Shown one piece after another: positions 58,211 through 60,746 of a stretch of DNA of 64,000 nucleotides. The first letter of the stretch is position 1, and every line of letters begins with the position of its first letter. A program made the position numbers and the translations under genes. Below the pieces are notes generated by a model. It worked only from the letters and a program-made list of their open reading frames with translations, did not search any database and was not told the origin of the DNA. Source of the DNA: Polyangium fumosum (GTDB lineage Bacteria; Myxococcota_A; Polyangia; Polyangiales; Polyangiaceae); assembly GCF_005144585.1 (NCBI RefSeq), contig NZ_SSMQ01000005.1, forward strand, positions 1 through 64,000, written 5' to 3'.

Positions 58211-58933
58211 TCAATTGTCGCCGTTTTGCGAGGGGTCCAGACCGAACACTCGCTCATGACGCGCGCTCACGTGGCAACCCATGCACGACGCGACGCGCCC
58301 TGCGGACGTCACCTCCCCCTCGGGCGTGACCGTTCCATAGACCCACCCCGCGTCCGTGCCCGGCGTTTCGGGCGCGACCTTGAGCACGACATACGCCCCG
58401 GCGAGGCGCGAGGCGCGGTAGACCCGGTCGCCGACCCGTACATACGGATTGAAATGGTCGGCCGTGGCGGGCATTTCCTGGAGGGCGGCGAGCTCGCCCT
58501 GGGGAATCGGCTTGTCCATGAGTTCGGGGAGATAACTCTCCTTGACGACGATCTGCCCCACCGGCTGGGGCACGGGCGCGGCGGTATGGATGATCGGGTA
58601 GGGATGCGGGTCTTTGGCAAACACCGAATAAAGCTTGCGCGCGTGGCCGCCGTCCTCTGCGGCGCTCATGCGCGTACGGCCCGGCTGGGGCATGCGGCAG
58701 AGCCAGGGCGCCCAGCGCAGTTCGTCGTCGATACGCCCCCAGGCCTTGTAGTCGCGGAACGCGGCAGCGAGGAGCGGGACGAACCGCGGATCGAGTTCGG
58801 TCGTCGTGGAGGCGCTCGCCGGAGCCGCAGGGGGTTGTGCTTCTTTGCTTTCGGTCGCCGGGGTGACGGGCTCGTCGAGAGGGCGGGTGCACCCGGGCGC
58901 GAGGGCGAGGAGGAGCAGCAGGGCAGGACGCAT
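58211..58933 (-). CDS. lipoprotein with a single c-type haem site (cytochrome P460-like)
   Basis: The start MRPALLLLLALAPGC gives a lipobox, followed by an Ala/Thr linker. The domain around DYKAWGRIDDELRWAPW, LYSVFAKDPHPYP and VGQIVVKESYLPEL, ending in VASCMGCHVSARHERVF, fits the P460-like pattern. A single CxxCH (C-M-G-C-H) near the C-terminus would bind haem c. P460 relatives oxidise hydroxylamine or NO; a role in nitrogen detoxification is inferred only. A cross-link Lys cannot be assigned from sequence alone. Confidence 0.65.
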   Translation of the reverse strand: MRPALLLLLALAPGCTRPLDEPVTPATESKEAQPPAAPASASTTTELDPRFVPLLAAAFRDYKAWGRIDDELRWAPWLCRMPQPGRTRMSAAEDGGHARKLYSVFAKDPHPYPIIHTAAPVPQPVGQIVVKESYLPELMDKPIPQGELAALQEMPATADHFNPYVRVGDRVYRASRLAGAYVVLKVAPETPGTDAGWVYGTVTPEGEVTSAGRVASCMGCHVSARHERVFGLDPSQNGDN

Positions 58934-58991
58934 GGGGCTCGATGAGACGCGCACGGTGCGCAAAGGATCTGTGCTCTATGCTCGGCGCACG

Positions 58992-60746
58992 TCACGCCAA
59001 CGACGGAGGCTGCGCGTCGGGCGCGGCGAATCGGCCGAGGACGGCAGGCGCGTCGCTGACGGAAATGAGGACGATCTCTTCGTCCGTGGCGATCACGATT
59101 CGGTCGGCGGCAGGGCTGAACGCGGCCGCGAGGATCCGCGCGTCGATCCGGAACAAGAGCTTTTCGCCGTCGCTGACCACGCCGGTGCCGTGGAGGATCC
59201 GGAATCGATTCTGCGGGGTCAACCCCATCGCCGTTGCCATCTCGCCGGCATAGGCTTCCTCGAACGGGGCCTCCGAGGAGATGCACACCGCGGGGTCCTC
59301 CGCGGAGATTTCGGATGGCATCACGGGGTCGAGCTGCGGGATTCCCGTGTCGAGGTCGAGGACGGCCGTGCTCTCCTGCTCGCCGACCCAGGCAAAGCGG
59401 CCGTCGCGCGTGCTGGCCAGCACCGCGGGCCGATCGCCGCCCCAGCGAAGGGGCGCGGGCCGGGCGCGCGTCGCCGGCGACGCGCCGTCGTCGCTGCCGT
59501 TCGACGCGTCGCCGGCGACGCTGCCGACCACGAGGTCCTCCGGCTGGTCATGTTCGAGCAAACGCAGCGGCATGTCCGCGGGATAGGTGTCGAGGTACGC
59601 GTTCGTATCGAGGTCGAGCACGGCCACGCTCGCGCGGCCCGAGACCGCGTCCCAGTATTCGTCTTTGTCGAACCAATCCCACGCGTCTCGCATCCACGCC
59701 GCCATGCGCAAGCGCGCGCCATGCACGCTCGTGGCAAGACGGCCGCACGTGGGCACGTGCGCGAGCACGTCGCCGCCGGTGGTGACGAGCCACGAGCCGT
59801 GGGGCCGCTGCACGAAGAGCCGCGCGTCGTCGACGAAGAGGAGGCCCCTGACGTCGGTCCCGACGTCCTCCGGCAAACGGCCCGGCATGCCCACGAGGCG
59901 CACGGGCGATGAAATGGGCTTCGGCTCGGGCCACGGGCGTATCGCCGCGGGCGGGGACACGGTCGCGTGCACGACGGTCTCGAAGAGGTCCTGCACCACG
60001 CGCTGCCGGGACATCAGGATCACCGGCGGCGGCGCAAGCTCGACGAGGTGGAGCTGGCTCTGCGCCGCCAGCACGAGGGCAAGCCAGGCCTCGTTGAGCG
60101 GGCCGATCCACGGGTCGACCATGGCCGGACCGAGATCGGCGTAGAAAGGACGTTGCCCCGGCGGCGGCAGCGGGACGGCGCGCGTGATCAAGACGGCCAC
60201 GAGCGCCGGATCGGCCCCGGCGCGTACCAGCGCCGCCGAGAGCGCGGAGAGGCCCGTCGCGCCGGCATTCTCGTGGGTATCCATCTCGTCGGCCGGGCGG
60301 ACGGTGTCGCCGTCGAGCCACGCTTCGCAGCGCGCGATCGCTCGAACCTGATCGGCCGACAAACGCAGCACGTCGGCCACGAGGGGCGCGAGCGCGGGGT
60401 GCAGGACGCCCACGACCTGCACGTGGCCGTAACGACGCTCGCGCAGCGCGGGCGTGGAGCAGAGGACGCCGCAGCGCTCGCACGTTTCGCCCGCGTGTTC
60501 TTCCCCGGACAGCGCGCCACACGCGCAGCGGAACAGGCTCACGGGCCCGAAGATGCACTGGCAAAAAATGCCATCGCGGACCGGCCGGCGCCTCGAGTTC
60601 GACCAGCGCCGCAGGAGGTCGCCGCTGGTGACGCGTCCAAACGAGCGAATGTCGTCGGGCGCCGCGGGGTCGAGGAGGTTCTTCTGGACCCATTGAAGGT
60701 CCGCCACGACGTCCGACGGAGAGAAAAACCGGTCTCGAAGGGACAT
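58992..60746 (-). CDS. RNA polymerase beta'-clamp-like protein fused to a propeller-like C-terminus
   Basis: A 584-residue protein that starts MSLRDRFFSPSD. Residues 25-265 follow RpoC in order: DDIRSFGRV (RpoC IRSWSFGEV), RDGIFCQCIFGPV (RDGLFCARIFGPV), and a zinc-ribbon C74-x-C76-12-C89-xx-C92 with the same spacing as E. coli RpoC C70/C72/C85/C88. RERRYGHVQVVG (RERMGHIELAS), VPLPPPGQRP (VIPPDLRP) and SRQRVVQDLFETV (NEKRMLQEAVDAL) follow. The match covers the zinc ribbon and the clamp-helix (sigma-binding) area, but the catalytic NADFDGD core is absent. Residues about 270-584 have repeats such as SVAVLDLDTN and STAVLDLDTG, which suggest a beta-propeller. I infer an RNA-polymerase or sigma interactor. 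Confidence 0.8.
   Translation of the reverse strand: MSLRDRFFSPSDVVADLQWVQKNLLDPAAPDDIRSFGRVTSGDLLRRWSNSRRRPVRDGIFCQCIFGPVSLFRCACGALSGEEHAGETCERCGVLCSTPALRERRYGHVQVVGVLHPALAPLVADVLRLSADQVRAIARCEAWLDGDTVRPADEMDTHENAGATGLSALSAALVRAGADPALVAVLITRAVPLPPPGQRPFYADLGPAMVDPWIGPLNEAWLALVLAAQSQLHLVELAPPPVILMSRQRVVQDLFETVVHATVSPPAAIRPWPEPKPISSPVRLVGMPGRLPEDVGTDVRGLLFVDDARLFVQRPHGSWLVTTGGDVLAHVPTCGRLATSVHGARLRMAAWMRDAWDWFDKDEYWDAVSGRASVAVLDLDTNAYLDTYPADMPLRLLEHDQPEDLVVGSVAGDASNGSDDGASPATRARPAPLRWGGDRPAVLASTRDGRFAWVGEQESTAVLDLDTGIPQLDPVMPSEISAEDPAVCISSEAPFEEAYAGEMATAMGLTPQNRFRILHGTGVVSDGEKLLFRIDARILAAAFSPAADRIVIATDEEIVLISVSDAPAVLGRFAAPDAQPPSLA

Follow-up and report, generated by a model that had tools for sequence, protein, structure and literature searches.

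A detached, catalysis-free paralogue of the RNA polymerase beta' clamp with a predicted WD40-like domain in Polyangium fumosum

What does the clamp of an RNA polymerase do when it is encoded apart from the polymerase? The question is raised by a gene of the soil bacterium Polyangium fumosum that lies in a stretch of 64,000 nucleotides (NCBI RefSeq assembly GCF_005144585.1, contig NZ_SSMQ01000005.1, positions 1 to 64,000; hereafter the window), which forms the start of contig C156 in a genome of 12.98 Mb and 201 contigs. To our knowledge, large RNA polymerase subunits are as a rule seen only as parts of polymerases. An earlier note on this DNA had described in the encoded protein about 240 residues collinear with the beta' subunit, RpoC, from the IRSW region through the zinc ribbon to the clamp-helix block, followed by a repeat-rich, propeller-like region, and had suggested a polymerase mimic, a sigma trap or a co-regulator. 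As judged from sequence comparison, the window protein is a catalysis-free paralogue of the RpoC N-terminus in which the clamp body, the ribbon and the clamp-helix block are retained in order. The gene and its parts are as follows (residues are those of the window protein).

58,992 to 60,746, minus strand: whole gene, 584 amino acids; ATG at 60,746, stop codon at 58,994-58,992
60,543 to 60,578, minus strand: RDGIFCQCIFGP block, residues 57-68, the best-kept RpoC block, with 77% of RpoC-invariant positions kept
60,459 to 60,527, minus strand: C4 zinc ribbon, C74-C76-C89-C92 with flanks, residues 74-96, with the spacing of E. coli beta' C70 C72 C85 C88
60,387 to 60,434, minus strand: RYGH...LHPA segment, residues 105-120, with HP in place of RpoC HIW
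60,147 to 60,176, minus strand: VPLPPPGQRP, residues 191-200, counterpart of beta' VLPPDLRP
59,967 to 60,101, minus strand: clamp-helix block, residues 216-260, counterpart of beta' 264-308, with the polar sigma-contact residues lost
59,856 to 59,966, minus strand: proline-rich linker, residues 261-297, evident from the sequence itself
59,022 to 59,855, minus strand: predicted C-terminal WD40-like repeat (propeller-like) domain, about residues 298-575, from profile matches
59,022 to 59,141, minus strand: putative last blade-like unit, ARILAAAFSPAADRIVIAT..., residues 536-575, where the family profile matches WD40 repeats and controls are negative

The reading frame, for which the earlier note gave no strand, is on the minus strand, and the plus strand is interrupted by a stop in the same register. 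The GC content at codon positions 1/2/3 is 0.73/0.52/0.88, which fits a coding frame in a GC-rich genome, and the start MSL[RH]DRF is common to the Polyangium and Nannocystis orthologues. The window protein does not start with a signal-like hydrophobic segment (its 19-residue hydropathy peaks at 1.7, at residue 169), and a promoter and terminator scan for the gene found none.

Homology to the RpoC clamp

When searched against the Protein Data Bank (PDB) with phmmer, the window protein matched beta' subunits from E=1.2e-14; a second segment, aligned to beta' 250-322, was insignificant. NCBIfam rpoC models matched it at E=4.6e-12 and 3.3e-11, with bit scores (44.1 and 41.7) far below the full-length cut-offs of 1437 and 963.5. 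A hidden Markov model (HMM) built from 15 genuine RpoC sequences only recognized the protein at E=8.3e-14, nearly all of it from the N-terminal block including the ribbon. A profile of 16 relatives aligned with E. coli RpoC (hhalign probability 99.7%, E=1.3e-26), columns 31-260 corresponding to beta' 30-308, which bears out the collinearity seen earlier. With a clamp profile made without the window protein and the six sequences closest to it in the alignment, the window protein still matched at E=5.4e-62. The phmmer, NCBIfam, hhalign and RpoC-only HMM matches rule out chance similarity to RpoC. Taken literally, with Pfam RNA_pol_Rpb1_1 (PF04997) as its single model, the HMM check that the earlier note had proposed would have failed: the window protein scored 12.4 bits (E=0.1) and did not reach the gathering score of 39.7. 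A relative of the same architecture, L056, passed the Pfam model at 57.3 bits (G, C and L numbers are our handles for genomes, contigs and loci).

Conservation is uneven along the clamp. Of the RpoC-invariant positions, the window protein keeps most in RDG..IFGP (77%), followed by PPxxRP and the helix tip (50% each), the ribbon (43%) and RRER.GHI (36%). Fewer are kept in the first motif (34-48; 21%), in the lid (15%) and in the paired clamp helices (16% and 13%). Its cysteines 74, 76, 89 and 92 are spaced exactly as E. coli beta' 70, 72, 85 and 88, as the earlier note had said of the ribbon, and P192, P195, R199 and P200 of VPLPPPGQRP are invariant in 16 of 16 aligned relatives. On its own, the clamp-helix block of the window protein is insignificant against the RpoC-only model (domain E=100). 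The block is better kept in relatives (E=4.2e-8 for G169:C184 and 5.5e-7 for G197 with the same model), and it is through these relatives, not through direct comparison with RpoC, that it is recognized in the window protein.

The order of blocks is that of the RpoC N-terminal region covered by PF04997, namely S-x-G-x-V, RDG-IFGP, the C4 ribbon, RR-GH, PPxxRP and the clamp-helix block. Unlike RpoC, the window protein has its lid sequence replaced, has no rudder and no catalytic barrel, lacks the sigma and RNA contact residues and is fused to a putative WD40-like domain. The NADFDGD Mg-binding loop and the double-psi barrel are absent from all 584 residues. The RpoC-like part stops at the equivalent of beta' 308, and the loop in E. 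coli RpoC (458-464) lies far past the last aligned residue, so the catalytic core is missing, as the earlier note had it.

A patchy family of clamp and C-terminal domain

The repeat-rich domain that the earlier note placed after the clamp appears to be WD40-like. A wide profile of the C-terminal half (A6) matched repeats of large proteins from related genomes (six tested, E 2.7e-20 to 8.8e-7), and neither 6 reversed nor 30 shuffled control copies gave a match. The three of these six large proteins that were scanned with Pfam all carry strong WD40 matches, and the part of the family profile that matches WD40-repeat proteins is its last unit. A second profile (A2, 12 sequences) gave five weak matches in the PDB, among them WD40 or propeller-fragment proteins (E=0.033, 0.11 and 0.61) and IFT172 (0.6). 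Unlike known WD40 beta-propeller proteins, the C-terminal half matched no Pfam propeller family in 16 members. Self-comparison of the C-terminal profile gave weak internal repeats, and AlphaFold models of the window protein and of its C-terminal half, each run with four relatives, had predicted local distance difference test (pLDDT) values of 33.8 and 35.1. These matches support a WD40-like repeat domain, which may form a closed propeller. Three relatives, G169:C138 (L047:9418-11511), G460 (L061:418-2109) and G110 (L062:1258-3069), share an extra C-terminal segment, very roughly 70-100 residues long, that is not in the window protein.

Among 377 genomes of the phylum, A6 found a match in 12 at E<=2e-30; among 183 genomes of the order, 11 had matches at E<=2e-17, in 15 genes, G169 accounting for four and G075 for two. 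The union at E<=2e-17 is 22 genes in 18 genomes. All 22 also match the family clamp profile in the same frame (in G290 with the helix part of the clamp only, the frame running to the contig end), although 14 of the 22 had helped to build that profile. With the leave-one-out procedure (the window clade taken as a block), all 16 members of the profile continued to match at E<=2.5e-16, and the profile of genuine RpoC only matched 17 of the 22 at E<=0.001. Since 12 of the 22 genes were first located through the C-terminal profile, the pairing with a clamp is not simply a search artefact. The next A6 match down (G151:C10, E=2.5e-11) has no detectable clamp, and G363 is borderline, with a C-terminal match at E=8.1e-9, which A6 missed when run locally with filters on, and a clamp match at E=2.3e-9. 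These profile comparisons show clamp and C-terminal domain as a patchy Myxococcota family inherited as one unit.

Thus homologues occur in other Polyangiales, where the earlier note had suggested looking for them, and also beyond Polyangiales. Five of the six Polyangium genomes have the gene and G152 is without it; named relatives are Polyangium sp. y55x31 (80%), Polyangium sp. 15x6 (79%), Nannocystis pusilla (67%) and N. poenicansa (68%). The propeller-like domain, about which the earlier note had asked whether it is always present, is not: it is missing from clamp-only relatives at L048, L049 and L145 and from the chimeras of beta-C, beta'-N and alpha C-terminal domain (alpha-CTD) taken up below. 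The clamp-only proteins (L048:9140-10096 in G009, L049:9344-10354 in G007, and L145 in G006) have about 320-400 residues, the figure for L145 being a frame length, with the ribbon intact and no C-terminal-profile match.

The tree and the residue counts rest on 51 hand-picked rows of 87 distinct clamp stretches: 23 clamp-propeller proteins (one of which, L030 of G145, has no C-terminal-profile match), 8 clamps without propeller, 5 chimeras and 15 RpoC. L173 and L180 had too few columns for the tree, and the 51 rows leave aside further RpoC copies or pieces (L013, L018, L020, L141, L142 and L160 among them) and the partial or borderline relatives L057 (G290), L075 (G273), L063 and L076. One branch of moderate support (84/98) parts the RpoC rows from all catalysis-free rows, and a single origin of the catalysis-free paralogues is possible. 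Within the tree, the Polyangium, Nannocystis and G130 copies group together (97/92) with the G169 copy outside; G169, G130 and the genome of the window belong to one family. The RpoC of P. fumosum is 89.4% identical to that of G130 and 69.1% to that of Nannocystis. The clamp-propeller protein has 56.2% identity to its G130 counterpart, yet 68.7-69.5% to those of Nannocystis. Given this contrast and the grouping in the tree, lateral transfer is the simplest reading, and the gene has apparently moved between Polyangium and Nannocystis.

The gene is under purifying selection: the ratio of nonsynonymous to synonymous substitution rates (dN/dS) is 0.21-0.39 in 21 of 21 pairs of seven orthologues. 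When Polyangium is compared with Nannocystis (ten pairs), the clamp half changes faster, with dN of 0.25-0.28 versus 0.13-0.21 for the C-terminal half.

Polymerase contacts and the possible role of the clamp fold

A paper on the sigma32 holoenzyme gives R275, R278, R281, L282, L285, I291, E295 and M298 as the sigma contacts on beta' (PMC10216364). Where beta' has R R R L L I E M at these positions, A S H L L I R V is found in the window protein. It keeps 3 of the 8 listed contacts and none of the four polar ones, R275, R278, R281 and E295 all being changed. Among the 23 clamp-propeller relatives, R275 is kept in 6, R278 in 10, R281 in 16 and E295 in 7, and all four are kept in 3. The beta' zinc domain binds RNA, as work on the HK022 putRNA complex describes (PMC9378689). 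The ribbon of the window protein holds one Lys/Arg versus six in all 15 RpoC compared, and four acidic residues versus two. Across the window clade, glycine, proline, cysteine and hydrophobic residues that are invariant in RpoC are kept in 228/560 alignment cells versus 118/441 for polar ones. These comparisons show that the window clade has not retained the residues with which the clamp of a real polymerase grips sigma and contacts RNA.

The ribbon itself is kept or lost as a whole. All four cysteines are present in 13 of the 23 clamp-propeller proteins, 10 have no aligned ribbon and none is intermediate. On the best tree its presence changes 8 times, at least 2 of these changes being forced by well-supported branches. 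The family can apparently do without the ribbon, and in the proteins that have it, selection seems to keep it as a folded unit.

With polymerase-specific contacts gone and the fold kept, we give a probability of about one half to the reading that the clamp was reused as a protein-binding adaptor or stoichiometric binder. The RpoC N-terminus, detached and free of catalysis, would serve as a cytoplasmic binding scaffold. The clamp fold would be a rigid platform, and the propeller-like domain, which is the more constrained half between Polyangium and Nannocystis, would present a WD40-like partner-binding face by which the window protein could hold another protein. Several observations weigh against this reading. 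Three relatives of the same architecture, L056, L009 and L119, retain all four polar sigma contacts; therefore, the ancestor may have bound sigma. For the window protein alone, 30/80 structural residues are kept versus 14/63 polar ones, which is not significant (Fisher p=0.068) and uses residue class as a stand-in for buried and exposed positions, so that the better retention of structural residues is suggestive only for this protein. The best of the weak PDB matches of A2 is a pre-16S rRNA nuclease (7ess, E=0.028) and not a propeller. Finally, five of the 22 family genes miss E=0.001 with the RpoC-only profile (G075:C705 at 0.0017, G273 at 0.0059, G169:C225 at 0.024, G170 at 0.059 and G169:C69 at 5).

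There are other possible explanations for a detached clamp. A sigma trap, or a mimic or co-regulator of RNA polymerase, would use the clamp helices to titrate sigma or a NusG-type factor from the polymerase. The clamp-helix block is indeed recognizable in the family, half of the RpoC-invariant tip residues are kept, and the full set of polar contacts persists in the 3 relatives named above and in a second, clamp-only paralogue of the same genome (see below). In the window protein itself, none of these polar contacts survives, identity at RpoC-invariant sites of the clamp helices is 13-16% versus 77% in the RDG..IFGP block, and the ribbon is down to its single basic residue. We thus do not uphold the trap or mimic proposed by the earlier note for this protein and regard it as unlikely. 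Alternatively, the protein could be a decoy, sensor or other conflict protein that counters antibiotics or phage proteins aimed at the beta' clamp. This would suit a family that is patchy, apparently laterally moved and diverging, with up to four copies per genome (G169), and HK022 putRNA, on the beta' zinc domain, is a phage element that binds this region. A HipA-like gene (Pfam HipA_C) and a helix-turn-helix gene adjoin the copies at L119:849-2632 (G075:C705) and L124:4556-5985 (G050), a lead towards conflict systems that is not common to the window locus, being found at 2 of 24 loci. In a decoy, the surface under attack should be preserved, yet the polar residues are those lost, and PADLOC matched 0 of 6 proteins, the window protein included; we consider this explanation improbable.

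A nucleic-acid-binding regulator acting through the ribbon is more doubtful still. The C4 ribbon always comes with all four cysteines where it occurs, but no ribbon is aligned in 10 of 23 relatives, and the ribbon of the window protein has exchanged most of its basic residues for a more acidic composition. In jumbo phages, beta' is cut into separate polypeptides, of which the N-terminal piece keeps the Mg-binding double-psi beta-barrel (DPBB) and works with other polymerase pieces (PMC7824862). The window protein is likewise a separate polypeptide with the N-terminal part of beta', but it has no DPBB, and the search of its genome showed no catalytic pieces other than the normal rpoB and rpoC. 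These two genes are situated on another contig; an RpoC query in the genome found only rpoC, the window gene, one clamp-only paralogue on contig C140 and a weak stretch inside the rpoB frame, and an RpoB query found rpoB only. With no second RpoB or RpoC core in this search, the idea that the protein is one subunit of a second, split RNA polymerase is very improbable and nearly excluded. The least probable explanation is that a duplicated rpoC is decaying and has left this fragment: little of rpoC remains, and what does has diverged, but the frames are intact in several genera, the fused domain is kept across the phylum, and the purifying selection described above nearly excludes a pseudogene.

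A second clamp and other polymerase-derived proteins

The clamp-only paralogue found with the RpoC query has 331 residues and lies on the minus strand of contig C140 (L203:7902-8894; G000:C140:75901-76893). Like the window protein, it is a stand-alone beta' N-terminus without a catalytic core; unlike it, the C140 protein has no ribbon and no propeller, and its helix keeps 8 of the 8 sigma contacts listed for sigma32, as do 5 of 5 full-length Polyangium copies. Four of the five C140 rows are aligned over the C-terminal half only, and N-terminal counts for this group come from one row. Among the 183 order genomes at E<=1e-12, the C140 protein occurs in 6 of 6 genomes of the genus (as a fragment in G150); five other matches to this query cover the RpoC-shared stretch in frames of 481-1515 residues that look like rpoC or pieces of it. 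By these residues, the C140 protein rather than the window protein is the natural, better candidate for a sigma trap.

Single-chain beta-C/beta'-N/alpha-CTD proteins without NADFDGD occur in other Polyangia. Like the window protein, they carry the RpoC N-terminal ribbon module apart from the catalytic loop; unlike it, they include C-terminal parts of RpoB and RpoA and have no propeller. Protein P0003 of G016 matches Pfam Rpb1_1 at E=3.2e-38, Rpb2_6 at 2e-21 and alpha-CTD at 3.2e-11. Two Nannocystis proteins are further chimeras, and more diverged ones, in which not every part reaches its Pfam cut-off, are found in G005, G006 and G007.

L045:6062-8848 (G016), L173:1132-3657, L176:2361-5159, L177:2835-6311, L180:3088-5784, L194:7412-10060 and L195:8474-11119: single-chain RpoB-C/RpoC-N/RpoA-C proteins

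Further polymerase-like frames were seen. In L192:8676-11054 (G130), the match to RpoC (E 1.6e-47 with the rpoC model) sets in at about the catalytic barrel and NADFDGD is lost, and L193:6654-7712 (G169) is a shorter protein found with RpoC at 28% identity. L172:1431-3317, L178:4702-6528 and L179:3801-5378 (in G005, G006 and G007) combine an N-terminal half that is uncharacterised with a zinc ribbon of the RpoC type nearer the C-terminus.

The surroundings of the clamp-propeller gene are syntenic within Polyangium, and at 24 loci (some truncated by contig ends) no neighbour recurs widely outside this genus. Three pairs of loci share neighbours, none of which is at the window locus; an M16 peptidase pair is upstream of both L047 and L061. 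Histidine kinases lie near the G130 and G273 loci. Downstream of the window gene, the gene at 58,211-58,963 (minus strand) has a lipoprotein-like start and a C-x2-C-H motif (SCMGCH); its homologues are near the clamp gene in several Polyangium genomes and not beside relatives elsewhere. In collections of mobile elements, 63 plasmid and 29 phage records had a match and none covers 80% of the query. Among the matches listed, coverage is 14-21% of the query, the part shared with RpoC, and the best phage match among them is a 3,384-base beta' gene.

In open-access full text, where differently worded work may escape, we found no description of a detached, catalysis-free RpoC clamp, in keeping with the earlier note, which knew of no such protein. 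The nearest precedent is the split polymerases of jumbo phages, in which the catalytic barrel is retained. A broader view is conceivable, though we give it a low probability: Polyangium may use catalysis-free polymerase pieces as regulators and divide the clamp between them, the window protein supplying ribbon and body with a propeller-like adaptor and the C140 protein an intact sigma-docking helix that would act as a sigma sink, both belonging to a Polyangia-wide set that includes the beta-C/beta'-N/alpha-CTD proteins. That a bacterial family conserves the clamp in the absence of the catalytic core shows that pieces of a polymerase can be separated from it and put to different uses. With the sigma contacts lost in the window protein and kept in the C140 protein, nature provides clamp variants that make the contribution of each surface directly testable. 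Should the C140 protein bind sigma, it would represent a novel type of sigma regulator.

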